64,000 bases of DNA from Pseudisothecium myosuroides. Taxonomy: Eukaryota > Streptophyta > Bryopsida > Hypnales > Lembophyllaceae. Where the stretch lies: assembly GCA_951799445.1 (NCBI GenBank), contig OX637296.1, positions 496,001-560,000 of the forward strand. The letters run 5' to 3'. The position numbers were made by a program, and so were the translations under genes. Of the stretch, positions 7,501-37,946 are shown one piece after another (position 1 is the first letter of the stretch; each line of letters starts with the position of its first letter). The notes below the pieces were generated by a model. The model saw only the letters and a program-made list of their open reading frames with translations, searched no databases and was not told where the DNA came from.

Positions 7501-8742
7501 ATGGATAGCTCACGTCCTGAGGGTGGGAGCCCCAACATTTGTTTGATTGATGCCTGATTCTGGGAATTCATTCTGAAAAACACCACAGGCCCAGATGTCC
7601 TTCCTCTTGTATCTCAGCACATCAGCGGCAACGGATTCCCCGGTGATATTCAGCGCCTGCAACAAATGTTTGCGCTCAGGGAATTGACCAACATGGCACA
7701 CGATGAGGATAGCCCCATTGTTGTTGAGACCGCCATCAATTGGCTCGAAGGTCTTCAATTGTCTCTTGTGGAGAAGGAGAGGGTGAACGAGCAGGAGTCG
7801 AAGTGGGGGATGGGATTGTCTCACCACTCATTGGATGTGAGCATACTGAGGGAGCCGATTTTGGATCTGAGGTCACAAATTATGGCTTTTCGAGCTCCGA
7901 ACGGTGCTACGGTGGATGCAACAGGGGAGATTAGGAGTCTCATGCTAGAATTCACTGAGAGTGTATGGGGTTTGTTTGGCCCCTTGGCCTTGGAGAAGAT
8001 TGTGGCGGAGTTTGTATCGCGGGGAGGAGTGTCGTCAGCCACACCTGGTGCTCTGGAGGACTATGACAGCCCCATGTGCAAACTCTCCAGGTTTGAGGCT
8101 AGTGTTGAAGAAATGCGCCGACAACATGACAACTTGCTGAAGTTGCTCAATGAGCAGAAGGAGATGTGTCAGACGGTGCTTGCCAAGCTGCCCAATGCAA
8201 GAGCACCCTCCACGCTCAGCGACAAGATGTTGCAGCTTACCCGATCCCAATCTCAGGTGATGTCGATTGGAAACAATCCCTCCGAGTCCGGTGGCTCAAA
8301 GTCTATGAGAGGAGGCCTCTCAGGATCCCCGGAGTTTGGATGGTCATCCGCATCGAAACCACCTCTTCATGAGTAGCAGAAGAAGAAGAAGAAACAATCT
8401 GTGGACGTTGATTCGGGTGATGATGGCGACATGATGATTGTAGACGCTGCACCTGGGCCTCCTCGTCAACACAGCCCTGTCCCTGTAACCCGGCGGTCCA
8501 AATACCGCCCATCATCGAAGGGTGCTAATCAGGTGGCTCCGGCAAAGGCAAAGGAGTTCACGATGAAGGAAGATCGCTGCTTGGAGAAGGGCCTTGAAAA
8601 GCATGGAAAGGACAACTTCGACAAAATATTGAGCGAATATCAGTACACCCTCTTTGGACGTTCGGTGCGAGATCTCCAAGAGCGTATTTGGGCCAGCAAG
8701 GAGGGTTCATCCTTGAACATTGTCTGGAAGGCATTGCAGTGA
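7501..8742 (+). pseudogene. Telobox/Myb-family paralogue with two nonsense codons
   Basis: Aligned by eye with the intact paralogue at 11607-12803 and the copy at 36753-37946, one frame runs from ATG 7501 to TGA 8742. The N-terminal helical domain starts after the first 18 codons (WEFILKNTTG, compared with WELLLKNTSG in the copy at 36753). A TGA at 7555-7557 replaces a conserved Trp, because the paralogue has IDSWVWE where this copy reads IDA-stop-FWE. A second stop, TAG at 8374-8376, precedes a Lys/Asp-rich linker. The C-terminal SANT/Myb-like domain (FTMKEDRCLEKGLEKHGKDN) has a degenerate third helix with VRDLQERIW in place of the telobox. Both stops can arise by one C-to-T or G-to-A change in a CHG context. 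The long open stretches indicate recent loss, or expression of a C-terminal part only. Confidence 0.75.
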
Positions 8743-11525: not shown

Positions 11526-11606
11526 CATCCCGATTGACAGAGAGCATTGTGCTGCTTAGATCTTGGAGCTGTAGACTGTTTTTCAATCCCAAGCAACAGC
11601 CCCATA

Positions 11607-12803
11607 ATGACGTTGAGTGAGAGTGGACTTGCTGGTGGACGGGAGACCCTCGATGATGGGGTGATTGATTCGTGGGTTTGGGAATACCTGCTAGGTCATG
11701 CATCTGGGCAGAAGATTGTTAGAAGTCTTGTGGGGGCCTTCGAGAATGGATTCCCGCTATCGGTGGTTCGCTTGGTTCAGATGCAGTATGTCCGAGACCT
11801 GAATGAATTATACGAGGATGAGGGTCGTTTGATAGATTTGGTGTTGACCCTCCGTTGTCTGGATTCGTTTGAAGACTCTCTTGTGGAGAGCTCGTCGGAG
11901 AATGAACAACGGTGGCATTGGGGCCCCGGTTTGGACCAGCAGTCCTTGGAGGCTGGTGCACTCAAGCTGCCAATTCAACTTCTGAGGAAATCGCTTGAGG
12001 GGTTGAGAGGCGAAGAGGAGGATGACCGTAATGTTCAGCGTGCAATACGGAGGCTATTGAAGAACTTCACGGAGCGCGTATGGCCCCAGTTTGGAGCCTT
12101 GGCTTTGCCTCGAATTGCTGCAGATGCGGTGACTTGGAGGACCCAAGGGTCGTTGGTTGTGGCACCAGGTTCTGGAGAGAAGAGGTGGCCGCGGAGAGAG
12201 AAGTTAAAAGGTTCTCTTGAAGAACTCCGACTCCGGTATGCCACATTACAAAAGCAGGTGGGCGTGGAAATAGAAGCACTTCGAGCACGTTCCAAGCAAC
12301 ACCAGAGTCCACAAGAATCTTCCGCGATGGCCGACAGAGTCATGGACATGGCTATGACTAAATCACGCGTTAGGTCGACCCAAGACTTCACCTCAAGGTC
12401 TGATTTTGGGCGGTCCAGCAGCTCCCCGGCATTTGTGCGGTCCATGAAGCGCTCTCTCAACTACGATTCCGATTTCAAAGACCAGCCCGCCTCGGGGAAA
12501 AATGCTTTTGCCCTGCGAACACCGAAATTGGAAATGTCGCACCTCCGGCCTCCTCCTCAACCAGCGACTACTGCACCCCTTGCCACTGACAATGACGTTG
12601 TTGTTAAACGTCTCAACCAAAAGTTTACAAGGGAGGAGGATGCGGTCATTGAAGCAGGCTATCAGAAACATGGGAAACACTGGAAGACGATACTTGTGGA
12701 GAATCCTGATGTTCTCCGAGGACGAACTGATGTCAACTTGAAGGACAGGTGGCGGACTATTCAAAGAAATTTGCAGAAACAAGCCCAACAGAGTGCTCAG
12801 TGA
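11607..12803 (+). CDS. Telobox Myb protein with N-terminal TRFH-like helical domain
   Basis: An intact single-exon ORF of 398 residues. The first ATG is at 11607; the frame is open further upstream but has no earlier ATG. Residues about 340-390 form a single Myb/SANT repeat: FTREEDAVIEAGYQKHGKHW, then the helix-3 signature VNLKDRWRT. That signature is the telobox of telomere-repeat-binding proteins (consensus V-D/N-L-K-D-K/R-W-R), so binding to TTTAGGG-type DNA is expected. Residues about 15-220 are predicted mostly helical and are shared with the paralogues at 7501 and 36753. Their position and helix pattern (SWVWEYLL, then MQYVRDLNELYEDEGRLIDL) recall the TRFH dimerisation domain of animal and fungal TRF proteins, but this is inference from pattern only. 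The middle is Ser-rich and probably disordered. A nuclear location is likely. It is the only undamaged copy of three in the window. Confidence 0.8.
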   Translation: MTLSESGLAGGRETLDDGVIDSWVWEYLLGHASGQKIVRSLVGAFENGFPLSVVRLVQMQYVRDLNELYEDEGRLIDLVLTLRCLDSFEDSLVESSSENEQRWHWGPGLDQQSLEAGALKLPIQLLRKSLEGLRGEEEDDRNVQRAIRRLLKNFTERVWPQFGALALPRIAADAVTWRTQGSLVVAPGSGEKRWPRREKLKGSLEELRLRYATLQKQVGVEIEALRARSKQHQSPQESSAMADRVMDMAMTKSRVRSTQDFTSRSDFGRSSSSPAFVRSMKRSLNYDSDFKDQPASGKNAFALRTPKLEMSHLRPPPQPATTAPLATDNDVVVKRLNQKFTREEDAVIEAGYQKHGKHWKTILVENPDVLRGRTDVNLKDRWRTIQRNLQKQAQQSAQ

Positions 12804-19814: not shown

Positions 19815-21290
19815 ATGTTTGCTTCCGCGAACCGTGACCGCTCCATTGTGGACGTAGATGCCGCATGTTTTATGATGGATGTCCGTGACTTACCTCGTAT
19901 GTTTGGAGAAATCGTCAGGCCCGCCAACCATAGAGCTCCTATCAGGGATTTAAAGTATTTTCATGAGTGGTTGAGTGTGATTTCAGACCCCGTTGTTGTG
20001 AAGGTGAATGTTGGGGCCACCGCAGAGGGGAGGCAACATGGCAAACGTGTGATTTGTCAAGAGTTGCGGAGGCACCACCGATTGACATTGACTATCAGCG
20101 GCGATTCGCTAGTTCTCTCGAAGAGCCAGGTCAATATTCCTCTACAGGCCATGGTCGATGCTCTCCAAGCTTGTGGACACAAGGAATGTCGAGTGGGGTT
20201 CTATGGAATGAAATGGGCCTACCCAAATGCTCAACTGAGGATCGATCGTTGTGTTGAACTCCATACGGCTCTTCATGGTAGGCTGGCCATTATCAAAAGA
20301 AACAAATTTGACATTGGCACCCGACTGCCGACCGCAACAGTGGATGTCTTCCGCTTCAGTGAGAGACAGGTATTCCCCCATCGAATGTATAGGGAGGGAA
20401 GGGTGCATGACATGTTCAGCATTGAGGGCTTTGGTTCCATTAATTTTACCATGCCTCATCATCCAGTGATAAAAAGCATCAAAATCTATCAGAAAATGAC
20501 CCATGCTGTAATCTCGGAAATACCGAAGACTTGCTTGGATGATATGCCTAGGACCCTGCGAACTTTGCGCATACGGTTGGAACAGTTCAAGACACTGTTG
20601 CAGGATTGGGAACGCTCCGAAGATGATGAACTCAAAGAGAATATACTCGGTACGAGGATCGAAATCACGGTTGTTGGTGTTAGTTCGGTCCAAGAAGCCG
20701 CCAAGATCTGTCTTGACCTCGATCTTCTCACGATTCAGGGCATTGAAAGAATGTTGGGAGGGCCCTTCCAAGTTCGAAACATTTCCATGTATGAGGTCCT
20801 ACATAAAGCTGTGTCAAAGGTTCGTGCATTCGAAGAGCAAGTGCAGGGCAGAAATGAAAACAAGCCGACCATTAGGATGCGGACTGCATTAACAGAAGCG
20901 CGGCAGGCTCTTGGATGGAGTGGCAAGCACATGCCCAAACACCTGGTGGAAGCGAGGAACTGGATTCGACTATCCGCTGTTGCTGATCAAGGAGAAAGGG
21001 AAGTCCCTGATTTTCAATATGATGGCTGGGAGCAGGACATGGAGCATGTACGTCCAGTGATTCAGGACTTCCTCAACAATGCAAATTGGCAAAATCACAG
21101 CAATCAGCAAAATAACCCTGACCCTCATCCCATTTTCCTACAAAAGAAACGTGGGAGTGGGTATTTTAAAGTAAGGGGTGTCTACTTTGATCGTGTAAGT
21201 GGTGCTCGTCATTTTGTCAACAAGCATGGCGTTTATTGGAGGAGATGGGTTCAATCGAAGCTGCCGCCGGTAGATGTGCCTATTCCATAG
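19815..21290 (+). CDS. Intronless 491-residue protein of unknown function
   Basis: A single open frame from the ATG at 19815 to tandem TAG TAG stops (21288-21293). GC content and codon use are richer than in the flanks, and no inner stop occurs, so I take it as real. I recognise no family. Residues 1-330 look globular, with mixed helices and strands (MDVRDLPRMFGEIVRP near the N terminus and LRIDRCVELHTALHGRLAI mid-protein). About 250-345 is charged and helical. About 415-440 is Asn/Gln-rich and probably flexible. The C-terminal 45 residues form a basic aromatic block (GYFKVRGVYFDRVSGARHF) that could bind nucleic acid. No signal peptide or membrane segment is visible. It could be a lineage-specific gene or an old domesticated element. 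Confidence 0.7.
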   Translation: MFASANRDRSIVDVDAACFMMDVRDLPRMFGEIVRPANHRAPIRDLKYFHEWLSVISDPVVVKVNVGATAEGRQHGKRVICQELRRHHRLTLTISGDSLVLSKSQVNIPLQAMVDALQACGHKECRVGFYGMKWAYPNAQLRIDRCVELHTALHGRLAIIKRNKFDIGTRLPTATVDVFRFSERQVFPHRMYREGRVHDMFSIEGFGSINFTMPHHPVIKSIKIYQKMTHAVISEIPKTCLDDMPRTLRTLRIRLEQFKTLLQDWERSEDDELKENILGTRIEITVVGVSSVQEAAKICLDLDLLTIQGIERMLGGPFQVRNISMYEVLHKAVSKVRAFEEQVQGRNENKPTIRMRTALTEARQALGWSGKHMPKHLVEARNWIRLSAVADQGEREVPDFQYDGWEQDMEHVRPVIQDFLNNANWQNHSNQQNNPDPHPIFLQKKRGSGYFKVRGVYFDRVSGARHFVNKHGVYWRRWVQSKLPPVDVPIP

Positions 21291-22397
21291 TAGGTAGTTG
21301 CAAGAGCCCTCAAATAAACCCTCCCTCATCTGAAGAAAACATGGGATGTACTTGCCATATTCACCTAACAAATGATGCATATTTTTTAGATGTGAAGTTC
21401 ATTGCAAGTTCTACTGTCCTGGAGGTTTAAGTTTTGGAATAAAAGGTTGTGGTGTCATGTTGGGTGGCTTTGCAGGTGTAGCTTCTTGAGCCGAACCTAG
21501 GTGGCAAGGTTGGACTCCTTGAATTGTCTTTTTGTCATTGGGTTCTCACGGTAGCCTGGTTGGACACAGAAATTGGAGTGTTGGATTTGCTTTTTGAATA
21601 TGCTCAGTACTTTCAGCCCTTGAGATTTACATGTGACTGTGTGATTGATACATAAAACATTGTTCATTCCCAGTGTAGCCAATTTTCAAGGTGTTTTTCT
21701 TGTGGATGAACACAGAGGCCATCATGTTCAGCTCATATCTGGATGCCATTCAATTTATTAAAATCTTGAGCTGGAGGAATTGATTGAATGCTTTGGTATT
21801 AGTTGGAAGTTGCATGTTGGATCGTCTACATGGGTAATTGCAAGAATGACCGGTACTGGAACATTGTCACAAAAGTTGAAGTCGAGATATAAGTTGTTGT
21901 AACTTTTGAACCATGAGGAGTTTGAAGTTGAAATTTTTGGTGAAGGTAGATACATTCACTGCCATTGTGATGCATAATTTTCAGAAATTTTGAAAAATCA
22001 AATTGTATTTTATGTAGAATTAAAATAATTTGTCACGTTTTCAGTTTCGAAGGTTTTTAGTACTGAGGAGTACCCAAAGTTGAAGATGAAGACTTCAAAT
22101 TTTGGTGGTTTGTTCCCACATGAGGAGGGCACCCCTTTACAAAAGGGCGCCTTAAAATACTTTATTTTGTGGCCTCCACGCTTGTCGAGATAGGGCTCCC
22201 TTGCGCGCCTATTTGTGAGCAATCACGATGGTCTTCATTGCCTAATATAAGTGGAAAGTGATCACCATGAAGTCCATAGAAATGGCCAATTTTTATTTTA
22301 ATTTTTGGAAAGATGGTATATTTACTAGGAATTAAAACGTCAAAGTATCCTTTTTTGGGCAAGAAACTGGACCCTGGAATCGTCAAGTAGTGATGGG
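21291..22397. other. Intergenic, no gene seen
   Basis: 3' flank of the orphan gene followed by A/T-rich sequence up to the left end of the mobile element. No exon recognised. Confidence 0.4.
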
Positions 22398-22425
22398 TAC
22401 TGCTTAGTACTCTACAGTACTAAGA
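22398..22425. repeat. Left end of the element: TACT motifs spaced 10 bp
   Basis: TACT occurs at 22398, 22408 and 22418, two of them within AGTACT palindromes. The block is inverted at 35788-35810. Spacing of one helical turn suggests a multimeric protein binding site, and transposase is the natural candidate. Confidence 0.6.
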
Positions 22426-22741
22426 ACCGGGCCCACTAGTTCTGGCTCACGTCCACGTGGCGGAATGACATATGCATAGCCGCCGCCTCCAATTTGATTG
22501 TGCCTTCATTGATGGCAATTCATGCAAAAAAAAATCATGGACGGCGGTTTCTGAAGTTGCCGAAGGCTGCTACAGGCGGCTTAGGGTTGGCCGGTGCGCC
22601 TCGTTGAATTTGCAAAGAGGAAGATCAGTTGATCGTGTGCCTGTGCGGCCACAAGCACTGTCAGGAAGTACTGATTTCAGAGCGACGTCTAGCAGTTGAG
22701 GCGAGGTGTTCGCTAGAACATCGGTCTCATAGTCATCGCAA

Positions 22742-25700
22742 ATGCAGGCAGCTAGTACGTCGACGCATCTCGGAAGACGTCCACAGCCTGCTCCTTGTGC
22801 AGTTCCACGCACGAGACAACATGCAGTGGAGGCACAACAGCATGAAGAGCGACGGCGCAATGCACAGCGGCAGCAACGGAGCCGTGCTTGGCGAAGTGCG
22901 GTTGCTCCAGATGCTATCCCGAATGCGGTGTCGCTGGAAGAAGACGGCGCTCCACGTCCACGTGATCGTTCTTCATTTCGTACCACTGTGAAGCGGCATG
23001 CGGACCGAATCTCTGCCACCTTACTGGAGCTTCTGGAAGACGTGGACTGCCGACGCCTTCGTGCTGCTATATTGAAGAGGGTCTTCCGGTATGAGCATGT
23101 CCGATCGCTACTTCCCGATGATTATCCCAGTCCTGAAGATGTCAGAGTGCAGCAACAGATTCTGCGGAATATCCGAGCGGAGTTGGACCGCATGAAAATC
23201 CCGAATTCCAATGGAAAATTGGCAAGAAAGCGCTCCATTCTGGAAGCAGTTGTTTCCGAAGCAGATGCCGACATTAGTAGCTTTCACCGCATTCTGGGAA
23301 CAAGGAAGAGCAATTTGGTCGGAGCTGCAGAGCGCTTGCGCAGCGCTTCCAGCAGTAGCGATGACAGGTTATTGGTGCCCCGTCGAAGAAAGCGTGAGGG
23401 AGGGATTCCAGATGCTGTGAAGTGTGCAGTTGCGAATTGGTGGACTGAGGAGACCCGTGTGAGTCCTAATAGGAAGGACATTCGGAGGAAACGTTTAGGT
23501 CGGAACGTATACGACACGCATGCAGCTCATCTTCTACTTGAAACACAGGTTTCCACATCCCTCTTAGTCCTCTTTTCCATGCCTGCACTTTGTTTGCGAG
23601 ATTGCATGTACAACTGCACAGTTGTTTGCATAGTTCCAGTTGTAGTTGCTGTAAGAGGTCCTTCATATGTATTGCCGTCACCACATAGTCCAGGATGCCA
23701 TTGTTGGTGTCCATTGCGCACAGCTAAAGTAGAGTTTTCCTTCAGTATAGCATGCAATATATGGAATCACCCCTCTGTGCAGTACATTGCACTGTGAGGA
23801 TTGTCCACATCGAGCACTGCCGACTGCTAAAGCAAAGTGCCATCCTGCCACACTTCTGGTCTGCGTTTTTTAGTGTCCGACTGTAGTAATGGCTTTGGTG
23901 TTGCTTCACTTCAAACGTACAGCATCAGCGTGTTTGGGTGCCACTACTGTAGAAGTGTCCCCAACTATTTTGAGCCAGTCCTGTCCGTGTAGGTGGTGTA
24001 CTGCTGCATGCCGCGTACCTTGTAATACAAAGTATTCAGATTATGACTCGGCCAAGTGTGCCAGGTCTATGACAGTACTGGCAGCATTAGGCTGGAGTTC
24101 ATCGGACTGTCTCTAGTTTCTCTGCACGAGCGCCTTCTTCCTGTATTGTGTTCTATGGTACTGGAAGTCCTTTTCCTCAAAAACTGTATGCATCGTTTAC
24201 AGTGTCTATGCATTGGCCTCGTTCATTAGTAAGAAGGTTTTACTGATGTCGGCCTTCAGTCCTACAAGGACTTCCACTTGGAAGTATTTCTGGAAGTGTG
24301 AGTACCACAATGACTATAATCTGGTCTATTGTACTAGTACAAGTACTGACAAAGACTATGGAGTCCTCAGGAGTATCGGAAATTGATTCCGAATGGAATG
24401 CCGCATTTGAAACCTTTGTATTGTATGCGTGCTGTACATCCGAAGACGTCAGGGAATACCTCTGACGGTACTACTGAACACTATAATAATCGGAAGCCGT
24501 ACCCGTAGTACTTATACCTAGGAATCGACGTATTGGTTGAGGACTTCCATTCTATCTGATGACTGAGTAGTACTAACTAGTACTGAATAGTACTTTCCAG
24601 TACTCAGTAGTACTAATTAGTACTATATAGTACTTCTCAGTACTGGTTAGTACATAGTAGTAGTCATATGTAGTTGAGCATACTGCCTTCCAGTAGAATT
24701 ACCTCCACGTTCCAGTGCGTTCTTGACTTCATTGTTGTTCATGTCACTTTCGCTGCGACTGCTGTGTCCCACGACTCAATGCCGAAGAGCAGCTCTCGTA
24801 GGGGGCTTGCAATACGCTACTTTCCTGCTACATTCCTTATTGACCACACGAGATTTTATTAAAGGAAGTGACTGTCTGTGCAGAAGACTTTGTACAACCG
24901 CTTTGTAGTTACTCATCCGGAGTGCGTGATAATGCTCCGCTCATTTATCTACTTGCGCCCGTACTTCGTCATCAAGTGCAAGGAACGAAATGTGTGCTGC
25001 TGTCGATACCATGTTCAAGTTCTATTCCTCCTGGAGGCCCTCAATGCCTTCCGACACCCCCGGACAGGTGCACACTTCCTTCTGCATTGCAATTGCGAAT
25101 GCATCATTTGCGGAGACAACAATGGCGGTGCTTGCAGAGCAGGAGACAATCGCTTTGTGGGTGTCACGGCATTGTAGGAGTCCGTACTATGTCCTAAGCC
25201 TGATGACTCAGAGTTCCATGCACTGGAATGTCTCATGGGAACATGCACCAGATGTGGCGTCAATACATTTCAACTATGCCCACGTGAAATGACGGATGTT
25301 CCCGGACTGACCATCAAGTGGAAGCAATTCCAATACGAAGTGGTTGGCTGTTCAACAGATGGCAAGCCAAAAAAACGCATCAAAGAGGTGGTCCGTGCTA
25401 CTACTTTTCCCGAGTTCTTCGAATTCTTCAAGCCAACTATCAAACGCTTCATTTGGCACAATTTTGAAGCACGTTGGCAAACCGAACAAGCTAAGCTGGT
25501 TCGCTCCTGCTTGCAAGAGGGCACTATTCTGAGCCATATAGACTTCGCTGAAAACTACACCTTCCAAGTGCAGAATGAGATCCAGTCAATGTATTACACC
25601 TCTACTCAAATTACAATTTTGGTTCAAGTTACTTACTACATTGCCTCTGTTCAAGTGGATGGCGAAGTGCAGCCTTCCCTTACAAGAGAGACTCACTACT

Positions 25701-27140
25701 ACATCTCCGATGACCGGAGTCATGACACTCTTTTTGTGCAGCACTGTCTGCAACAACATTGGCAGTGGTTCTCATCAAATCATTTTTCACCTCGAACACA
25801 CTTCGTCTTCAGCGATGGTTGCTCTAGCCAATTCAAAGGGGCTAGAGCCTTGTATTTCGCAGCCAAGTGACCTTCCCCTTGTAAGCCTCCTATACAATCA
25901 CTTCTGCATTGCAATGACTACTTGTTACTCATGTACAAGTATGGACTCAGCCATTATGCATTGCAGGACTTCGGAAGAGTGTACTGGAACGTCACTTGTC
26001 CTGCTGTCACTAATTGAGGACGTGTAATTCATTGCTTTACAACTGCAGATATCCATCATTAACCAGCGGTTGCAAAATGGTTTGGAATTTCTTTGGCTTG
26101 GGCCACGGGAAGGGCGAATGGGATGGTGCAGGGGCTGTCGTCAAGCGGAAGCTACGGTCCGAGCAACTTCTGAATCCTAATCGCACTTTGCAAACCGCTG
26201 CTGAGTGTGTGACTTTCCTCAATGCGGCATTGGGTGGCCAAGTTCCGAACGCTCGAGATCGATTGAGGTGAGATGGAAACATATTTATTGTCTACATGAC
26301 CCAGTTCTGAATTGGTAGAGAAGTAGGTCACCTTGCACATTGTCGCTAGAGAAAAATACTTCCAAGTGATTATGACGTTCGGTACGTCCTCTGAAATTTT
26401 ACAGTGCTGCACTAACGTCCCTCTTCCACACCATCAGGTCATACCGGTTCTTTCACCACGTCGGCATTGCAGATGTCGCCCGCAGCAACCCTCATGCTTG
26501 TGATCCCATACCTGGTTCGTCAGCATTCCACTCCGTATTTGCTACGGATGAACAGGATCCCACTAAGCTCTTCGTCAGAGAGCTCTCTTGCTTCTGCGGT
26601 CCGTGCTTGGAAGACAATTTCATGCACTGCGAGAACCAGGCTTACGTAAAAGCTTGGAAAGTATTGAAGATTGAGCCTCGACGTTTACCTTCATCCCGTG
26701 CGCAGGATGTGACCGACAACGAAGACGACGCTTGGGACTGGGACTACACAGGAGAAGGTATGGCAGATTTGGTGCAGCCCGGAGACAATTTTGCCGTTCC
26801 TGCCGCGCCAGACAATGAGGAGGGGATATCATTTTATGTATTGCAGTGCCAAACTCCGAAGACTGTCGTCCGTGAAAGCTTTGATTGCACTTGGGGAGGG
26901 CACTTTGAAGCTGGAGAACATGTCATTTCAGCGACTTACTACCAAAAGTGGGGCCGACAAGACCTTCAAAACTACGTGTACTTGGCAAACTCACAGCCCG
27001 CGCATGTGGATGCCAACATAGTCCTCGCTTGCAAATTCCAGATGATTCCACGAGAACACCGTGTTAAAGGTGGTCAACGAGTGTACACTCTAGCTGACGA
27101 AACTTTGGACGTCATCCACAGTGCGCTGGATTGTCTGTGA
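22742..27140 (+). CDS. DDE-like transposase, multi-exon
   Basis: My exons are 22742-23548, 24884-25866, 26049-26267 and 26438-27140, all with phase-matched GT-AG junctions. An in-frame TAG lies just upstream of the ATG at 22742. Order: a basic N terminus; a block with VSPNRKDIRR; a Cys/His region (LRPYFV, CCCRYHV, HCNCECIICG, ECLMGTCTRCG); then the catalytic-like blocks HIDFAENY (25535-25558), FSDGCSSQFKGA (25808-25843) and FFGLGHGKGEWDGAGAVVKR (from about 26092). A Cys-rich block (LSCFCGPC) and a beta-rich C-terminal domain (about residues 560-690) follow. The series HIDFAENY, EIQSMYY, SDG..SQ.K and GHGKG..DG is one I recall from a large uncharacterised protein family in cnidarians and other animals. 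The two Asp and the late Glu/Asp fit an RNase H-like DDE/D core. One flaw: around 25071-25177 the frame ends in TAG, and a family-like ETIALW block sits in another frame, so a small intron or a lesion lies there. Confidence 0.7.
24568..24656. repeat. AGTACT array with exact 10-bp period
   Basis: TACT begins at 24571, 24581, 24591, 24601, 24611, 24621, 24631 and 24641, and a TACA follows at 24651. Most are inside T/C-AGTACT palindromes with three variable bases between. The array lies in transposase intron 1 and repeats the motif of the element ends, so it may let transposase bind and regulate its own gene. Confidence 0.9.
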
Positions 27141-27786
27141 CTTCCGTTCTCAATGCAGGACGTTGTATTATATTTGTACAGTTCGTGTTAGCTCCAGTCC
27201 TCTGGCATTAGTAGTACACTGCATACTAGTCCAGTCCTACCGTAGAACTATATTACCAATGCTAGCAGTGTAAATACCCAGTGCTTCGCACTGACATGGT
27301 ACTACAGATTCCTACTACGTGGTACTCCGGAGGACAACTTAGTAGTCGACAGAACTGCTCAGTACTCCGTAGTCCTCTCAGTACTCAACTATGCACAACT
27401 TTGCGTAGTTCTTATGACGACAGTTGTAAAAACAACGGAGTCTTTAGTATTGTGTTATGTTTACACAATGTGGCCTACGGAGGTCAAGGCCATGCAGTAT
27501 CGCTGTGCACTTCATACATGTAATTCAGTGGCCCATGCAAGTTTTATACCATCTGTCAATAACACTTATGCTATTACAAAAGGAAGACGGGAAAGTGGTA
27601 AAGTTCTGTGTTCACAGCATGAACGGAATATTACATGTCAGATATTAGAAATGCCCATTCAGTTCCCTGTCTCTATTCAAGGATAGAGCTGCCTGTAGGT
27701 CCACGGTGTACATCCAATTTCCTGTATCTACAATGGTCACTCCTTATTTAATAAGTGGAATTCGAAGTACACATCATTGGTGGAAG
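27141..27786. other. Spacer between convergent transposase and SET genes
   Basis: No gene. It holds scattered TAGTAC and AGTACT motifs (about 27205-27380) and should contain both 3' ends. Confidence 0.5.
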
Positions 27787-29190
27787 TCATTGTCCTCTAC
27801 AAAGTGTGCTACCACAGTGGCAGGCAAATGGTGCTGGTTCTTCATCGAAGGCAATGCCGTAATCCCAGGTCAGCTCTTCCCCTGCTCGTATGGTGCGGTT
27901 TGCAAAAAAAGCCACCTGCAGTAGAACCGTGCAAAGCAGTTAGAGCAGTCCATTGTCGTGTTGTAAACAGCCTGGTACACATACAAAGAACATGTACAGC
28001 AGAAGGAACACTTGCATGATATAGCATCGGGCTTCGCATGTCGACCCACACGGGCATGTTCATTAGATTAGCATCTCCACATCTGCAATAAAAAGCAGTG
28101 CAACGTTAGTATACAGAAGCGGACATCATGTTTAACGACATCTTCAACTTCATCACATTCAGGAGTGTAGGTGCAGCAGTCATGCCTATGGTTCAACCAC
28201 CTCGCCACATTTGCCATGACAGATGCATCAATGGAGTGAAGGCAGTCGTCGTTGTGCACAAGCTCAGACTCCCAGTCCGCATCCAAGGCCATGGCAAATG
28301 TCGTCCGGTCACCTCTTCTCAGCAACTCAGCGTTTGTGACCACTTCACCAGCATATTCAAAAACAAAGCTTCCCGGCAGCAAAGTCTGAGTAGTGCGAAT
28401 GCCCCAACCTTTCGAGTCATTCACGTGAAATACCTAAGCACAATAGCATGGCAGTAGACGTTAGTGATTGCAGCGACGTGCTTCAGCGGTTTGAAAAAGA
28501 AAGTAGAAGGTGGCCTTCACCTGCAAATTCACAGTGAGTCCTTTTTGGACTACTCGATTCACACAAGACGGAGGACACGTACAAGTGCTGTTGCACTCTC
28601 GAATGTACTGGAGACAAACATGTCCTTCACACACTCCATTTCTTAGCTCAGGGCAGTAGGGCTGGTCATTGCAGTAGACAAATCCTCTTGTACAACCGCG
28701 CCGTCGTTCCAAAAACTGCACAATGAAACGCAAAGTGAGCAATGACTGGAAGCATGCAGAACGGTACGCTATACAATACGAAGTCCACTCCTTCAGTGAC
28801 CATGGCAACTGTACAAACTCTGCAGGCACAGTGCTGAAGAACGCAAGGCTCATAATGAAATTGGATAGAAGAGGAGCACGTACCTGTAGTACGTACCGAG
28901 GATGCAGAAGCCCTCCCTGAATGTATGCGCACTAGCTTCTCCCAATCTCACAGCAGCAGTCTCCAGCGTTGGCCACACAACGATGCTTACTGCTGCCATA
29001 GTGTGCTTTCATATGCATTTCCCTTACAGGCAGGTCGTGCGCAGTGACGGAGGAATGAATTTGAGGACATCGGACATACGTGTAAGATTTGTCGACCACA
29101 GCGAACGACTTCCCGTTTTTCCCCTCGTCAAGGCCAATCGGGACTCTTTCTAGACCTCTAGACACATCATATGGAATGGCAGCTGGAGCA
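27787..29190 (-). CDS. SUVR-type SET-domain histone H3K9 methyltransferase carried by the transposon
   Basis: The 3' exons, in order of transcription, are 28715-28521, 28433-28186, 28082-28016 and 27915-27787. They encode a Cys-rich pre-SET end (CTCPPSCVNRVVQKGL), then SET: GWGIRTTQTLLPG, FEYAGEVVTN, SIDASVMANVARWLNHR joined to CGDANLMNMPVWVDMR, then YH joined to VAFFANRTIRAGEELTWDYG. The post-SET end is FACHCGSTLCRGQ before TGA 27789-27787. The AdoMet-binding NHRC block, the catalytic Tyr of EELTWDYG and the post-SET cysteines are all present. An upstream exon near 29188-29028 reads PYDVSRGLERVPIGL, as in plant SUVR/SUVH pre-SET regions. The 5' end and one or two pre-SET exons are unresolved. 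Two introns (28185-28083 and 28015-27916) use GC-AG sites, the first with a TACTAAC branch point. The predicted role is nuclear methylation of histone H3 Lys9. Intactness suggests function. Confidence 0.85.
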
Positions 29191-29799
29191 CCCTGTTGCC
29201 AGACGCTCATCATACACAAAGTGGGCCATGCAAGTTTGAAATAGGATCTTTCATTACAAAAAGGGATGTACAACTGCTTCTATGCATGCATGCACTTCTG
29301 CTCCGCCACCAAGGTCGGCACAGAGCGCACACTTTAGCAGCTGGAAACCACATACCATGTGCACAGAATCTGATGAAGAACACTGATGTTCGTGTTTCTA
29401 CCATCGGATTCCTACTGCGAGCCCCTCCGGCCGGGGGCAACATTGACGCCATGAAGTTCAGCCGGCATGCTTTCCGTGAGCACACACTGGGGCCTGAGGC
29501 CCACGGCTCTCTCGTGGGCCATGCACCACTCCGTGGACCCGACGTCATCTCACAAGGAAGGGGCTTTCCTGAGTACATTGTGCACTTGCAATGGGGCTAC
29601 CGCAGTGGTGGAGGCCAGTCGTACTGGCTTAGTCCCACGGGACTCCCGTGGAACCTCAACCACTGCATAGGCCCCAAATATAATATACAAACAGCATTTG
29701 AGCGTCAAAAACATAAACATTAGTACGGAGTGTCAGCAGTCCTTCACGGAGTGGAGGACTGACGGAGAAGTCATCATGTTGTACGCGAGCACAATCCAC
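29191..29799. other. Spacer between SET and RING genes
   Basis: GC-rich stretch that should contain the SET promoter or 5' exons. Open frames exist on both strands (for example minus 29578-29210), but I cannot assign them. Confidence 0.35.
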
Positions 29800-32700
29800 T
29801 TATTTCTTATTATCCACCTTGGACTTCTTTGGAATGGAACCAGGAAGACGAGTAGGTGATGAGTTGTCTCCTCCTCCTGTTCCTGCATGAGTTCGAAGTC
29901 GAAGGACTCTACTACTAGGATTTTCTGGCGGAGGAACTTCCTCCGGCATAGCGTCCACTTCTACTGCCTTTCCTGCACATGTAGGTAGTAAATTAGAAAA
30001 AGGTAACTACGAAATGTACATTATTAGTACGGAATAGGACCAAAGCAGTACAACAAAGTACTGGGAGGGTCTTCCACATAGCATGGCGCAGTACTATCTA
30101 GTGCACCATAGTACTGTGCGCTGCACTACTATGTACTAGGAACAATTTTTGTTTGGTGCAGCACGAACTGCAGTGCCAGAAATGTGACAGTTGTGAGCAC
30201 ATACAAGACATCGACGCGGGTTGACGGTAGGAATGGAAGTGGCAAAGGGACGTGCGCACAACTGCTCACCTTTCTTACCCTTTCCTTGTGGACGCGTAGG
30301 TGATGTGCTTGGCATATTTTGTAGCTCTGTTGTTGTAGGAGATGGCAGTATGATGTTGTCGTTCAGTACTGTCTTTTGCCGTTTTGAAATTCTCTGGAAT
30401 GTGATAGAATACGGATCCTCTGCAATGCCTTCCGTTGACTTTGGCATGGGATGTAGAGGGTCAACCAGCACTGCAGAAAGTGGTCCTTGTGGATTTCCTT
30501 GCTGGACAATTGACAGAACCACAAAGATAAGAAGACAAGAGAAGGGAACAGCTTTGATGACGTGTATGAAGAAATAGAATGTTTTCTGATATGTGAATTC
30601 CTGCGTTCCAAGTATGACAGAATGGAAGGAAGAAGCAGGCAACAACGGAGAATGTGTTTTGCACTTACTGGAGCTAAAAGACTGACTTGTCCGATGGCAT
30701 TTCCAGTAACGGAGGCATGTACAACGACCTTGTCAGCTTCTAAATGCATGGAATTGTTGTCCTCATGTTGGAAATTGTAGCCCGCGCCCTGCTGTTGCAT
30801 ATTCTCCCGGTTAGAGGCCGCTATTGGAACAACAGTTGTGGCGACGGTGCAAGACAGAGTGGTGTTTTGGGGGCCGAGGGCATTCACAGCTCTACCTGTC
30901 TCGGACATGGGCTCTGCTGCAGGGGACGTCTCCAGCGGCGACGTGCCTGTACGGCTGGCTTTGAAATTTGTGGATGGCGTTGATAGTTGTGACGCAAAAG
31001 CATTACAAGAGCCATCCACGTCTCTTAGTGCACACACGGGACTGAGGTCTGAACCGTCTTGCCCATATTTCATGAGCTTGGGGACGACGCCATGCTTGCC
31101 CTCCGGAATGCATTTCGAGAATGTGCTGTCTGTAGCAGATGTACTAGGAGCGCCTTCACCTCCTGTGGACGAGCCTGCAAAACGCACACAGACTGTACTC
31201 AGAGCAACGTTGAGTAGGGAAGCCACTACGTGAATAGAATGAGCATGAGCGGCAGTTCCGAACTGCTGCAGTTGGGAGGCCATAGCACTAAATGGAAGTG
31301 ACGTAGACAGTGTGGGTTATGAGTGGTCCTACAGTGTACTAGTGGCCTAAAAAGTGGTGCAAGAATTCTGAAAAGAGTGGTTCTGAAAGTGCTAGACAGT
31401 GATTCACAAAGTATCGTCAAAATGAAAGTAGTGCTACACATACGGAAGTGGAGGCCAGTCATGAACACTGTAGGGACAGGAATTCGTAATTACCTAGTGC
31501 TGCCTTTAGCGGCCACAAAGTTGATGGTTCCCACGCTCCGGGTGTAGCCGATGTTCTTAGCATGTCATCTGCTTCAACTGGAAGAAGTTGATCGTATTCA
31601 CCAAAACCCCAGCTATTGTACCACGTCCGCAACACGGCACCACAATGTGGCACAGCACACTCCACAGTGCTTCTGAACCAATGACACGCGCACCATGGAT
31701 GGTATACATGGCTGCAAGGACAGAGAATGATGTCCCAGAAGGGGAAGCCTTGCAAGCAGAGGCAACACTCTAAAATAGGTGGCAACACGGGTTCTGCATT
31801 AGTGGGAACTAGGACATCCTGAGTGTTGCATGAGGGCCACGGACGCATTACCGATGTGTCCTTCCCAACCGCCAGGTCCACCAAATATGCCTTCAAAGTC
31901 CGGAGGCGAGTGGAGTTGCCCTTTAGTGCAATGGACGCTTCACATACTTGAGCCTCCAACGCAGTTTTAGACACTGCAAATGCAGAAAGTTTCTTCACAT
32001 TTGAGTAGAACATCTTCATGATAGGCGCCATACTAACGTCATTTGGAGTAGGAGCACTTTCATCTTCTACAAGGAAAACACTGCAATTCTCTCCTGCCTC
32101 CGTCAAGGAGGCCTTGAATTGTTCCACAAGCTGGAAGGAAGCCTCCCATTGCACAGCAGCTTGACCGGCCTTTGCTGCCACATCTCGTACTTCCTGCTGT
32201 AAACGTTCCACTTCATCCTCCACCATGTGCACAAGCTCTGTAACCTTTGTTTTCCTGCAGAAGGAAGACATGGCATCCAGCATGAGTGCGAGGCAGAGAA
32301 CAGCATTCACTACCTTGGTGGCGACCATGACAGAAGAAGAATACGGCTATGATGCAGGAAGATAGAAAGGGACAAGTGAGTGCATGGGAGGACTATGTCG
32401 CGGCCACGAGAATCGGAATTGCGCTACAGTGTACTCATGGTATACTACAGGATTGTCCATGTATAGCGGAGGACTGCGGAAGAGTACTACTAGTACAAAG
32501 TGTCAATCCTGCAATGTCATTTTCTGTACTGAGAGTACATTAGAGGACTGTCTAGGAAACTGTTGGACCGCGCACGAGTACTACGACTAGTGAGGAAGAC
32601 TACAAGTGCTTGAGGGTAGGTGGTCAAGGACACAGTAGCACTGCATGTACTTATAGAAAGCGACGTTTCAGTGAAACTGCAACATGTGTGCACAGCTATC

Positions 32701-34282
32701 GCTGCGATGTATGCCACAACGGACAACAAAGTACTCACACTCACGAGACATTTTCTGTAAAGACTGGCATTGCAAGTGCGTTGCTGTACTGTCTGTGCTC
32801 TGTACTATGAAGGACGCAGCTTCCAACAAAGTGGACCACCGATAGTACAACAAAGGAACTATGCTTGCTAATCTGAGCAGTATTAGTACTTCGAAGCAAT
32901 GCACAGTATAGGGCAGTGACCAACGTCTTCAAAGGCAGTCCCTTGACAACAAGAAGTGCAATTTTACCCAATTGCAGTAGTGCATTCAGTATGTGACAAT
33001 GACGTCAACTCTGACTGCCTACGCACAAGTGCCGACTGCTGAGAAGGTATCCTATGACGAGGACACTCAGAATTCAATCTACAGCAGAAGAGCACACTAC
33101 GTGCACCAAATGGCATTCTGTTCTTGCAATTGCATCCTTCAAGGGGCAGAAATGAAATGTATGGAAAGCGTAATACCTTGCTGTCACCTCACCGTCTTGG
33201 TGGGCATCAAGTCGGAGGAAAAACGTTGGCTTCCGGTCGCCAGTTGTTGCACCGTCCATACTAACTGCTGCAGAGAAATCGAGGACTTCTTGCTTTTCAC
33301 TTGGAATGTCCGCATATTCCAGCAACCCCTCCGCAGAGTAGAGCTCATGCAGTGGCACGTCTACAGCTCTAGCCAGCCGGTGCATGCAAGCCTTCAGACG
33401 TCTGCAATATGACCTACGCTGCAGTGCATTTGTCTCTGCTGCAAACTCGGCCCAATTGACCTTTTTTTGCTTCACATTCTCCAACACATAGCCAATGGCA
33501 AATTCCTTTGCCACAACAGTACATGGCTGCGTCTTCTGGTAGCACAGGCAATAAAGCTTCTCCACATCTTTACGCTGAGTAGAAGACAATTTGTCCGTCA
33601 GAGAAAAACCGTTCCTAGATTTTTCAGGACCAAATACTTCTTCTATCTCCTCCAAGGTTATGTTCTTCCCCATCTTCAGTCTATGGGTGTTGGTTCCTTG
33701 ATGGTGAAGTCCAAATCGTGACGCAAAAGTTTGGGAACTCATCAGCGGAGGGGGCTTTTTGTCAGGTGCGGTGAGGGACGCCAACTCCTTGCGGCAATCA
33801 TACTCTGAGTACTCCTCGTCTCTCTTCTTGCTTCTTCGTGCAGGTGGGGAAGGGGCTGTGGTCATGACGACATTGTCCCCACTGTCCACATCTTCTTCGG
33901 AGTTCTGCTGCCCACGAGGAACAACATCACCACCACCCGACGACCCTGAACAAATGCTGCCGGGAGCTGCCGCTGATTTTGCCTTCTTCTTTTTTGCGGC
34001 AGGGGCCTTGTCCTTTGAGGAAGTGGTCCGCACTGTCACTGCAGAGGCCGCAGATGGCCCACCCTGTCGTTTTCTCTTTTCCGCTACAGGACCTGATTTT
34101 GGTGGAGGCAACCCCGTAGTCTGGCCCCTCATTCTGCCATCCTTATTTGTCATTTTCTTCTTGGCATATACTATGGCCGCATCTGACACAAAGTCTCCAC
34201 TGTCATCGGATGCATCAGCCTGTGCAGGTTTGTCTTCCGCAGTTGCTCGTCGGTGGACAAGAGTTTTCTTCATGTTTCCCAT
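29800..34282 (-). CDS. 925-residue domain-X / coiled-coil / RING protein
   Basis: Five exons, 34282-33177, 32254-31494, 31174-30669, 30501-30270 and 29972-29800, join in phase with GT-AG sites and give 926 codons ending in TAA. Residues 1-180 are basic, Ser/Pro-rich and disordered (AAKKKKAKSAAAPG), with likely nuclear signals. Residues about 205-340 are domain X, homologous to the gene at 1527 (EVFGPEKSRNGF, VNWAEFA). Residues about 370-510 are coiled coil (ELVHMVEDEVERLQQEVRDV). Residues about 531-573 form a RING-like zinc finger with CxxC, CxCxHxxH, CxCH and CxxxxC spacing (CCLC, CPCSHVYHPWCACHW, CAVPHC). The C-terminal 300 residues are Ser/Thr/Pro-rich and end in a Lys-rich tail. Likely roles are ubiquitin ligation or protein scaffolding. 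An alternative exon at 31287-31226 would give a shorter product. The promoter lies next to the right end of the element. Confidence 0.75.
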
Positions 34283-35787
34283 ACTTCACCTCTCTTTATT
34301 GCCGTCTGTCCTGTAAATGGCAAGCAAGACATGAATGCACAGGACAAGGGCACCAACATCCACTTGAGCAACAAGGAAAGAAGCACATAACCGTTGAACT
34401 TGTGGAATAACAACTGCAAATAGATGAGACATATTGACAGAGAGCAGAGCCTCCGGTGGCAGTAGAAGTAGGACTTCAAGTACTAAGAAGTACTGCCACT
34501 GCCGTACTGCCAGTACTTCGGAGTACCTTCGAAATGCCCTCTCCACTAGAAGTTCTAACTTGTTATAAGACGCAAAGAGAGTGGAAGATGAGCACGTGCA
34601 GGACACCAACCACTGCCAAGAATTTTGTAATGCTGAAATCTACGTGAAGGTGGGAGTCCTGTGCTTTCTAGCGAAAAGAAGACACGGCAAGACACTGCGA
34701 ACACGTTGGAGAACGAAGTTGGCACCGCAAGACCGACAGGACGGCAGAGGTCGTTCAAGCGGAACCCAAGACCAACCAATGACGACGACGGAGCTGCTAC
34801 ATCACCACCGCATGATAGCGGAAAGCCTCCTACAAGGCAACTGTGTGTGCTATTCATACAATTCTGCCAGCGAGAGAGCGTGGAAAGACGAAACCAAGAG
34901 AAGACGCCCACGTACACTGACGCTGAACCCGCTGCCACTAACGTGCAGAGGTCAATGAAAACCCTACCACGCTTGAAACATGTACCTCCCTTGCAATAAA
35001 GCCGACCAACAGAAAAAATAAGACAAGGGTGCTAGAACATACCTAAACAATCCTCCTCCGAAGTCGCTTTGTCACAGCGTCGGCGACCAAATCTCTACAG
35101 CGGTCACCACTGCAAGAAAGCCTTCTCCTCCCTTGCTCTATGGATCACGTCGCCGTCCTCTCCATGGCGGTGTGCACTGCTGTTGTCACGCAACGCACGC
35201 TTCCCTCCTCTAGCGCTTTCGCAGCCCTCATTTCTTCTACTTTGAAGCCTACTCACGAAGAACCCTAACCCGCACAGACGACGGTCCTCCCCATCTCACT
35301 TCACTGCCGTCCAACAGCGGACACCCGAACAACAGTGCTGCTTGTTTCTACAAGCATCAATTGCGGCGCATAGAACTTCCGCAATCTCACTTCCGACCAT
35401 AGCGGCAACGGTCAAAACGGCACAATTTTTCCAAACCCTACTCACCCCCGCTTGCACGACGACTACGCACAGCAATTCCAGAGAGACGAAGTGAAGACGG
35501 GTGGATGAATGTCGATGACAATGCCTCTCCAAATTTCATCCGTCCAAATTTGGATGAATGATAAGTGAAATCACGACTTCCCTGTCCAATTCTGGCTCTG
35601 CTGTCCCAACGACAGTCCTCCATTCCCATGCCACGTGTCAACATCCTTCTGACATGTCAGTTTTGAAACCCAGCTCTTTGGCGGGCACATTTATTGCAAA
35701 GGCCACGACCAGAAGACAGTTGTCCAAAGCTGAGAAGATCTGCTTTGTCATCAACGGCCACTAATGCATGTCATCGTTGCCCAATTG
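34283..35787. other. Right subterminal region and RING-gene promoter
   Basis: No clear coding exon. Holds AGTACT motifs near 34475-34525, and near 35545-35570 an inverted TTCATCC/GGATGAA pair with a direct CCAAATTT repeat. Probably promoter and leader of the leftward RING gene. Confidence 0.45.
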
Positions 35788-35810
35788 TACTCTTAGTACT
35801 GCCTAGTACT
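35788..35810. repeat. Right end of the element, inverted AGTACT block
   Basis: TACT begins at 35788, 35797 and 35807. The reverse complement of 35791-35810 matches the left block at 17 of 20 positions. Confidence 0.6.
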
Positions 35811-36395
35811 GTCTGCCGGAAGCCCAATTTCAGCCAAAACGGAACAAAAACAGCAAGTCATTCTTGCAACCACCCACATAGATATTTGAAAGAGGAAAGT
35901 AGACTTGTTGGATGCTTCGGACTGGTCTCTTACCCTATTATACCCTTGTATTTAACTCAAAAGAATTTGGTTGTATGACGTATCTTTGAAACTGCAAAAA
36001 TTGCGGTTCTCTCAGCACATATTTAGACTTTGTCTTTGCATTGTATTCCTGGATGGTGGCCAAGTCATGTACGCAAAAACACCTGAGGATGCAGTGTTGT
36101 AATTTTGGGGCCTTGAGTAAGCTCACTGAAACTGCTTGACATGAGCTTCCTTTTACAAGCAAGGACATCCAAGGACATGGATGAAACATGTAAGCCCTAG
36201 TAAATCGTGAGTGTGTTTGTCTGATCTAGTCCCATTTCATTTTCTCCATATATTTCATGCCCATCCATATGTGTGTAGGTGGCTTTTTATTGGATATCAC
36301 TACTCCCGATGGAGTCTGTTTTTCAAATTGGGATCGTACAAGTTTGGATCAACCCATGTGGAAAGATTGACATACTCAACAGCGGGAACCATCTG
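35811..36395. other. Intergenic, no gene seen
   Basis: Right flank of the element and upstream region of the 36753 locus. No exon recognised. Confidence 0.4.
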
Positions 36396-36580: not shown

Positions 36581-36752
36581 TGTGTCTTTTTGTGGGCAAC
36601 TATGGTTCCAGCTCACATTCCAAGGCACATGCATACTTTTGAGCCTTCACGGTTGTTGTTTTTGTGCTCCTCGTTTCTTTTGTGAGTGAAATGTTGTCTC
36701 TAGCATTGCTCCATTCCTCCAGGATTCAAGCTCCATCTTCTTCCTCACAAAG

Positions 36753-37946
36753 ATGACGACACGCACGTATGCAGGTCCTTCCGGAGTACAGGTTGGCCGA
36801 TTTACACTTGTCACAAACTGGATTTGGGAGTTGCTCTTGAAGAACACGTCGGGTAGAAAGCTTGTTGGTACGGTTTCAGTGAGTGGTTGCTTCCCGTTTC
36901 CAATGGACACACAACGTCTCAACCAAATGATCATGGTTAGGGAATTGACCGACATGGTGGAGGATTGCAATGAGCTTATCGATGTGGACAGGGCTTTCGG
37001 TTTTCTCAGAGGCTTGCTCAAAACACTTGTCCGAAGTGATCTGGTGAATGATGAGCAGTCCAAGTGGGGACCGGGTTTCCAGCAGTTTACGTTGGGGTCA
37101 GATGAAGTTCAGATACCAATCGAGGAGTTGTTGGCTCAAATGACGGAAGAAAGCGATGAGGAAGTGAGGAAGATTTTTTGTAACTTCACTAGCTTTGTGT
37201 GGGATCTCTTCGGACCCCTTGCATTGGATGGCATCTCTGCAGGTTTCGTATCTCGGGTTGAAAGAGCTGCGCTGGTCGTGCCCCATGCTGCACAAGACCT
37301 GCATGACGAGGAATTGGAGAATATTGGGCGGGATATTGAAGGACTTCATCAAGAGCACAGGCAGTTGGTTGAGCTGCTTGGTGACCACAAGAAGTTGTAT
37401 GAAAACATGGCGGCACTCAATTGCGCAGGTCCGGGAAGGAAGTTGGGGATCAGTGACAGCGTATTACAGCAGGCAAACACGATTTCCCAAAAATTCGTGC
37501 CCACACCCTCTCCTTTGGAGTCTGTTGTCCTATTGCCTAGTGGCTCCCCAGAGTTTGCATCAGGGTCGAAGTCGATTGCACGCTCCCCTCCTTTGGATTC
37601 TGACGCCACAGATACTGTTATCATTGGCGCTACTCCGGTGTAGAGATTTGGACCCACAACGTTGGGGTCCAAATTTCTTGCAAGGGGCGGTGCGAGGGGT
37701 GCTAATGTCAGTCAAGCGCTTTTGAAGGGGAATAAAAGGTTGTTCAAGGAGTTCTCGGTTATGGAGGACCGGGCTTTTGGAGCGGGTTTAGTATCGTTTG
37801 GAGAGAACGATCTCAAAGGAATTCTTCAGGCCAAGAAAATCACACTTGAAGGACGTATTGTGAGTGATCTTCAGGAGAACCTCCGGACATGCAAGCCGGG
37901 AACAGATTTGTATGCTGCGTGGAAGCGATGTGGGGGATCAGCTTGA
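36753..37946 (+). pseudogene. Telobox/Myb-family paralogue with one in-frame TAG
   Basis: One frame runs from ATG 36753 to TGA 37946, interrupted only by a TAG at 37641-37643. Before the stop are 296 residues of the family's N-terminal helical domain (NWIWELLLKNTSGRKL, MVRELTDMVEDCNELIDV, FVWDLFGPLAL) and a Ser-rich linker. After it comes a SANT/Myb-like domain (FSVMEDRAFGAGLVSFGEND) with a degenerate third helix (VSDLQENLRT) that lacks the telobox. It is closer to the copy at 7501 than to the intact 11607 gene. The stop lies about 25 aligned residues beyond the TAG of the 7501 copy, so the two stops are independent. It could also be a functional gene for the N-terminal domain alone, truncated at 296 residues. 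Confidence 0.7.

Follow-up and report, generated by a model that had tools for sequence, protein, structure and literature searches.

Does a DNA transposon of a moss carry its own histone methyltransferase and RING protein, and what would these genes do for it? Plants silence transposons via H3K9 methylation. The question was raised by a 64,000-nucleotide stretch of the Pseudisothecium myosuroides genome (388 Mb, 222 contigs), C10:496001-560000 on contig C10, which is called the window here. A preliminary description had placed a DDE-like transposase, a complete SUVR-type SET enzyme and a coiled-coil/RING protein between inverted AGTACT-type ends 13.4 kb apart. The analysis showed that positions 21832-35875 of the window (14,044 bp, boundaries set by homology to other copies) are an inserted cut-and-paste DNA transposon, Sola-like in having a DDD transposase and target duplications of 4 bp. 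The element is one member of a larger genomic family marked by an N-terminal domain (N-domain)/coiled-coil/RING gene, a SUVR-type SET gene and a transposase convergent with them, repeatedly in the same order.

Gene content of the element

The three genes of the window element were located as follows.

22742..27140, + strand, transposase, 4 exons (22742-23548, 24884-25866, 26049-26267, 26438-27140)
27787..29213, - strand, SUVR-type SET methyltransferase, 5 exons (29213-29028, 28715-28521, 28433-28186, 28082-28016, 27915-27787)
29800..34279, - strand, coiled-coil/RING accessory gene (N-terminal domain 34279-33188; coiled coil and RING 32346-31494; tail 31174-30669, 30501-30270 and 29972-29800)

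With the transposase on the plus strand and the SET and RING genes on the minus strand, the consistent polarity described earlier was confirmed. The window transposase comprised 903 codons with a single in-frame TAG at codon 367, and its DDE type was borne out by the exon model together with the DDD residues and the RNase-H fold seen in its relatives. Named matches came from the moss Ceratodon purpureus and the liverwort Calypogeia and, more weakly, from the conifer Cryptomeria. A search of viral contigs with the transposase P0011 gave no match, and the VIA rows did not name Sola, which carries no weight against Sola membership.

The SET product of 274 amino acids had GWGIR, NHRCGDAN, ELTWDYG and the post-SET CxCx4C, with a reduced pre-SET region; GWGIR, NHRC, ELTWDYG and CHCGSTLC are what we take to be the catalytic motifs and post-SET zinc residues. 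The five-exon frame with these motifs agreed with the claim of a complete SUVR-type SET gene. Two of its four introns had GC donors in the window; GT stood at one of these two in copy C8 and at both in C1c. The Pfam SET match had an E value of 9.1e-17; a cysteine-rich stretch was visible in the pre-SET region, but there was no Pfam pre-SET match. In a protein search, ten of 394 candidates had E<=0.001, the best being SUVR4 of Linum (47% over 68% of the query), and the SET core could be aligned with G9a/SUV39-type enzymes.

A SET-core tree of 31 rows combined the window and 20 fetched loci with 10 database proteins and had no SUVH rows; it used tblastn-derived pieces, some possibly running into introns, and the lineage-B loci L027, L029 and L030 were left out. 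Window-type SETs and one metagenome protein formed a clade (100/96), as did lineage B (98/100) and lineage C with P0003, P0004 and P0007 (92/81). The likely host SUVR gene (C1:49475k) grouped with the angiosperm rows P0001 and P0005 (99/97). A 98/97 branch set the three animal rows apart from the other 28; the branching order among host and transposon clades was not settled by the tree. By sequence, the element SET groups with plant SUVR and not with animal SUV39, and it looks like an H3K9-methyltransferase-like enzyme of predicted activity.

The coiled-coil/RING gene was likewise recovered on the minus strand, although its RING scored 16.1-16.7 bits with Pfam RING_11 and RING_2, below the cut-off of about 27. 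The RING region was matched in a distant homologue that has the N-domain and RING within one 664-amino-acid frame. Since this frame is single and the splice from 33188 to 32346 leaves the window frame open, the RING region and the open reading frame at 33190-34279 were treated as one gene; they probably are one, with an inferred joining intron. The tail is disordered and basic. Splice sites were mostly conserved among the copies. Exceptions included several in C8, C2b and C1c as well as the donor after 30270 (third tail exon, 30501-30270), which was not kept in C2a, C1a and C1b.

Lineage-B elements (L052, C10:1268000-1277900) appear to bear a second N-domain/RING gene, about 7-9 kb upstream of the first and 27-30% identical to it; similar pairs occur on C7, C3, C2 and C11. 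Within the window, a plus-strand frame at 1407-2171 resembles the N-domain of this gene by eye; it had no Pfam match and possibly belongs to another element.

Co-occurrence of the three genes in the genome

The transposase exon-2 search gave 122 matches (120 merged loci) and RING searches with two queries gave 118 merged loci; 61 SET loci, host SETs included, were picked by hand from the matches listed among 162, and at least one SET gene was counted twice (C11:6914202 and 6917983). Counts of SET near a transposase are lower bounds among these listed SET matches. At least 45 of the 120 transposases had a SET within 20 kb, 42 of them convergent. With SET positions shuffled, the mean was 1.8 and the maximum 6, which ruled out chance co-location. 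SET C7:13794236 was the nearest SET for two transposases.

The association depended on the distance of the transposase from that of the window. SET lay within 20 kb of at least 19 of 21 transposases with 57-100% identity (all convergent), at least 21 of 35 with 44-53% (20 convergent) and at least 5 of 64 with 33-43% (3 convergent). Thus the expectation that SET always travels with the transposase held for close relatives and failed for distant ones, most of which had no SET. The opposite possibility, a SET gene at one fixed host locus, does not agree with SET genes at many loci. Seventeen of the 61 listed SET loci had no exon-2 transposase match within 20 kb; one of them, C3:18996k, adjoins a last-exon transposase piece (L022).

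SET and RING were both convergent within 25 kb at no fewer than 35 of the 120 transposase loci, and SET was in the middle in 35/35. RING lay within 20 kb of 41 of the 61 listed SET loci, the nearest RING being upstream on the same strand in 40. A convergent RING stood beside 54 transposases (contigs C1-C11), where shuffling gave a mean of 1.4 and a maximum of 6. Five insertions, the three-gene loci in one order and the purifying selection on each gene between the window and C8 (see below) strongly supported the earlier claim that the transposon bears its own SET and RING genes.

In the 33-43% band (n=64), 15 loci had a convergent RING without SET, 3 had both, 43 had neither and 3 were of other kinds. 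Since distant transposases mostly are without SET and 15 of 64 have RING alone, RING and transposase are probably ancestral and SET a later gain. The transposase tree was compatible with this: the SET-bearing lineages A and C fell in one 99/99 clade with P0011-P0016, excluding row D (C10:1286k) and Ceratodon. SET-bearing status in this tree refers to the A and C rows, not to P0011-P0016, and lineage B is not in it. An apparent presence of RING near only 2 of 75 SET-less transposases was rejected as an artefact, put down to the limited sensitivity of the lineage-B query; the window RING query finds RING beside distant transposases. At C10:1268-1288k, the nearest transposase (42%) is on the SET's own strand and probably is a different, nested element; another transposase (49%) lies about 22 kb off.

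On contig C11, perhaps a sex chromosome or else a heterochromatic refuge, lay 21 of the 61 listed SET loci (places up to about 16 Mb) along with numerous RING matches and transposase matches of 43-53%, and not one of the 21 closest transposases.

Copies and ends of the element

A 76-bp probe of the left end first proposed matched four places in the genome, window included. Copies C2a (C2:15455284-15469336), C1b (C1:43.33-43.35 Mb, minus strand) and C1a (C1:11.933-11.950 Mb, with an insert of about 2.4 kb) were approximately 92-94% identical to the window element. The C8 copy (L041) showed 72-81% identity in aligned pieces and 67% by global alignment. All four bear the same genes, namely DDD transposase, SUVR-type SET methyltransferase and coiled-coil/RING gene. 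The check for further copies thus yielded four more aligned insertions of the same gene content, with ends that differ from those first claimed. These ends were as follows.

21828..21831, no strand, left 4-bp target site duplication ACAT, abutting the left end
21832..21850, + strand, terminal inverted repeat GGGTAATTGCAAGAATGAC on the left side, the true end by homology limits in copies
22406..22425, no strand, left member of a subterminal AGTACT pair (left "end" of the preliminary description), by inverted-repeat detection
35791..35810, no strand, right member of the same pair (right "end" of the preliminary description), by inverted-repeat detection
35857..35875, - strand, terminal inverted repeat GTCATTCTTGCAACCACCC on the right side, the true end by homology limits in copies
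35876..35879, no strand, right 4-bp target site duplication ACAT, abutting the right end

The 19-bp terminal repeats (GGGT...ACCC) paired at 17 of 19 positions. Homology to three other copies spanned 21832 to 35875/35876; the final element base is 35875, and 35876, to which some computations ran (one base past the element end), already lies in the target duplication. The 4-bp duplications were perfect in four of five copies (ACAT in the window, AGAA in C2a, TATA in C1b and TATA in C8), while in the fifth, C1a, AGTA/AATA matched in three of four bases. The inverted AGTACT pair of the preliminary description was present (85% complementary) but internal. It was ruled out as the element ends, since the homology of the copies starts further left, at 21832, and the true repeats and duplications lie outside it. 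Transposition follows from this anatomy of transposase, ends and target duplications. C2b, C1c and C4C showed no inverted-repeat ends within the fetched spans, in a search that did recover the known ends of C8.

The transposase of C1b was free of in-frame stops; the window, C2a and C8 each had a single one, C1c had two and C1a three, and C2b was frameshifted. The SET frame was open in the window and C1a, was interrupted by a single stop in C2a, in C1b and in the partial frame of C8, and was shifted in C2b and C1c. For the RING exon, the window, C2a and C1a kept an open frame, C1b and C8 had a shifted one, and C2b had two stops. The N-domain exon was open in the window and C2a, with one stop each in C1a and C1b, two in C8 and four in C2b. 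In the C8 copy, stretches of SET exons 1 and 3 adjoin.

Selection on the coding regions

Between the window and C8, the ratio of nonsynonymous to synonymous substitution rates (dN/dS) was 0.137 for the transposase (901 codons; bootstrap upper limit 0.168), 0.222 for SET (208 codons; 95% bootstrap 0.139-0.345), 0.200 for the RING exon (276 codons; upper limit 0.277) and 0.272 for the N-domain (361 codons; upper limit 0.370), with a synonymous divergence (dS) of 0.66-1.14 over the four regions. The corresponding ratios between the window and C2b (0.115, 0.091, 0.197 and 0.267) are rough, with dS of 1.5-2.2 and SET saturated (capped at 3). Judged from these ratios, all four coding regions are under purifying selection between the window and C8.

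AGTACT and other motif arrays

AGTACT occurred 29 times in the noncoding DNA of the element (7,681 bases) against 3.2 expected, approximately ninefold, a count reached in none of 300 first-order Markov shuffles; in its coding DNA (6,364 bases) it occurred twice against 0.8 expected. It was the top enriched 6-mer of the noncoding element in the window and in C8 (39 against 3.3 in C8) and the second in C2b. Enrichment was lower or absent in flanking DNA, with counts of 10 against 3.7 in the left flank (shuffle maximum 11), 5 against 4.6 in the right flank and 2 against 1.6 around C8. Two more lineage-A stretches had 15 against 3.1 and 8 against 2.4; at the host SUVR locus there was little enrichment (3 against 1.8). 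One cluster was distinct.

24569..24644, no strand, AGTACT tandem array with 10-bp spacing, within the first transposase intron

This array had about 8 units of 10-bp period in the window, 6 in C2a and about 20 in C1b. Between the window and C8, 12 of 31 AGTACT motifs were in a common column, against 14% for 148 other 6-mers, so the motifs are partly conserved and partly turned over. Other lineages had other words. In the lineage-B stretch GTACAA was enriched (45 against 5.8); 37 of the 44 counted fell outside the main frames, and some sit in a local direct repeat (L052 8440-8790). At C3:41393k the enriched word was CCGGAA/TCCGGA, and 18 of 19 TCCGGA began before the SET match. AGTACT was also considered as the TACTAGTA site of host SUVR5 and rejected, as only two TACTAGTA occur in the window element and this is not the enriched word.

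Proposed function and alternatives

That the three genes are kept in order in dozens of copies suggests that the element manages its own chromatin. As an explanation of the whole, drawn from sequence alone, we consider it reasonably probable that this is a DNA transposon with a recurrent three-gene family whose SET works on its own copies via the motif arrays. The SET gene would have joined a two-gene ancestor (RING and transposase) and would act in trans for the family. The candidate reader of the short-motif arrays in noncoding DNA is the element-encoded transposase or RING protein; it would recruit SET, perhaps with RING-made ubiquitin, to element copies, where altered H3K9 methylation would keep the transposase gene and the ends usable. 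Fixed gene order and selection argue that SET and RING serve the element, and their action may be on its own chromatin, aimed by the arrays. Of the two directions, escape from host silencing appears likelier than self-silencing, since a gene that selection on the element retains must as a rule increase the element's transmission.

SUVR4 turns H3K9me1 into me2/me3 in a ubiquitin-dependent manner, with passages of the source disagreeing on which state needs ubiquitin, and it contacts ubiquitin via an N-terminal WIYLD domain (PMC7218100). H3K9me2 recruits CMT2/CMT3, and Arabidopsis H3K9me3 is found mainly in euchromatin and expressed genes (PMC7218100). Given this ubiquitin dependence and the places where H3K9me3 lies, the pairing of a RING protein with a SUVR-like enzyme could loosen silencing and not tighten it; the short element SET protein seems to have no obvious room for a WIYLD domain.

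Several points weigh against the reading of an element that manages its own chromatin. The predicted structure of the RING protein was poor (mean predicted local distance difference test score, pLDDT, 48.5). None of the five copies compared at full length (window, C2a, C1a, C1b and C8) was intact in every gene, so any current activity is putative, and the C8 SET is without the pre-SET exon, its compared frame being interrupted by a stop at codon 6. Among C2a, C1a and C1b, which are young, dN/dS ran from 0.41 to above 1 on few changes; constraint after insertion is therefore not seen, as expected there. The most distant band, mostly without SET, holds 64 of the 120 transposase loci, and SET therefore is dispensable for the spread of such transposons. 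Row D is presumed to be SET-less, with a lineage-B SET lying 7 kb off on the same strand, and motif enrichment was weak in the lineage-C stretch (AGTACT 8 against 2.4).

The alternative that survives best, though somewhat unlikely, is self-restraint, in which SET would put repressive H3K9 methylation on family copies, limiting copy number and host damage. SU(VAR)3-9-type enzymes usually write repressive marks (PMC4260354), and many transposase matches have in-frame stops; however, restraint in trans would favour the carrier copy little over non-carriers, yet SET is conserved, and a SUVR4-like product need not repress if H3K9me3 is mainly euchromatic, as in Arabidopsis (PMC7218100). A self-aimed switch is a tentative and unlikely proposal: RING would give ubiquitin and the SUVR4-like SET would bring H3K9me3, in plants a mark of expressed genes, to its own copies and so draw them out of the host's H3K9me2-CMT3 silencing loop, each lineage acting on its own copies alone by a private motif code (AGTACT, GTACAA, TCCGGA).

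Two other roles seem quite improbable. SET or RING might guide or aid integration into heterochromatin and not control expression, for which 21 of the 61 listed SET loci lying within about 16 Mb on contig C11 could speak; the 21 closest transposase loci, however, are on eight of the contigs C1-C11 and none on C11, which may simply retain copies longer. The SET substrate might also have switched from H3K9 to the transposase or a host silencing protein, as the reduced pre-SET without Pfam match would allow, but the core aligns with G9a/SUV39-type enzymes and keeps the residues named above as catalytic and zinc-binding. Highly improbable is chance capture of host SET and RING exons carried without function. 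In its favour, gene capture is common among plant transposons, the youngest copies show relaxed dN/dS and C8 has lost the pre-SET exon, but the dN/dS of 0.20-0.27 for SET, RING exon and N-domain (window and C8), the conservation of most splice sites and the constant position of SET between RING and transposase contradict it.

Other features of the window

A 491-codon open frame at 19815-21290 adjoins the left side of the element and had no significant Pfam match. Three plus-strand frames around the transposon (7558-8376, 11538-12803 and 36690-37643) look by eye like paralogues of one host gene, and one of them ends in a MYB-like stretch, again by eye. A long array of a 24-bp tandem repeat (TATCTCTTGCTGGATATC...) at 60996-62272 has long open frames on both strands.

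Comparison with known systems

The plant transposon family described here retains under selection a putative writer of the very mark used to silence transposons, along with a RING protein and motif arrays. This makes it testable whether transposons rewrite histone marks to escape or tune silencing, and SET-plus and SET-minus relatives within one genome offer a natural comparison. SETMAR (Metnase) likewise links SET and DDE transposase domains, as one chimeric protein; it is a host fusion gene, unlike the gene set of a mobile element.

The element agrees with the Sola definition in its DDD transposase and 4-bp target duplications (PMC10741241). Sola elements also have terminal inverted repeats and are reported in Physcomitrella, and Sola2 elements elsewhere carry an extra protein, Fanzor1 (PMC10741241, PMC3627910). 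The passages seen of these sources mention neither SET nor RING, and the element is likened to Sola by description (PMC10741241) and not by transposase sequence.

HarbingerS and MuDR transposons of Phytophthora contain genes for SET methyltransferases (cited in PMC12730594), and a DNA transposon with SET is therefore already a known class. In the passage seen, these likewise are DNA transposons encoding a SET-domain histone methyltransferase, of other superfamilies and in an oomycete host, and they are likened to the moss element by description, not by SET type or gene order (PMC12730594). The moss element differs in its plant host, SUVR-type SET and RING gene within the cassette. Fungal DNA transposons with a TET/JBP dioxygenase also have a captured epigenetic enzyme, acting on methylcytosine, unlike a histone methyltransferase (PMC12730594). 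The literature search, with subscription journals mostly outside its reach, found the Phytophthora statement and no plant or Sola-like SET-bearing transposon. A Sola-like, SUVR-type example from a plant, equipped with a RING cassette and private motif arrays, was absent from what that search brought up, and this family is thus taken as a new plant form of the known class.

The closest likeness in targeting is to VANC of the VANDAL elements, whose targets in Arabidopsis are short, noncoding, tandemly arrayed motifs that differ among related families (PMC5735166). Noncoding arrays of a short lineage-specific motif were also found in the moss family, weakly in the lineage-C stretch, next to an element-encoded chromatin factor. 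VANC belongs to MuDR-type elements and is not described as a SET enzyme in the passages seen, and motif binding is shown for VANC and inferred for the moss element (PMC5735166). If the motif-aimed reading is true, the moss family would add to VANC a second and independent system of that kind in plants, working through histones.

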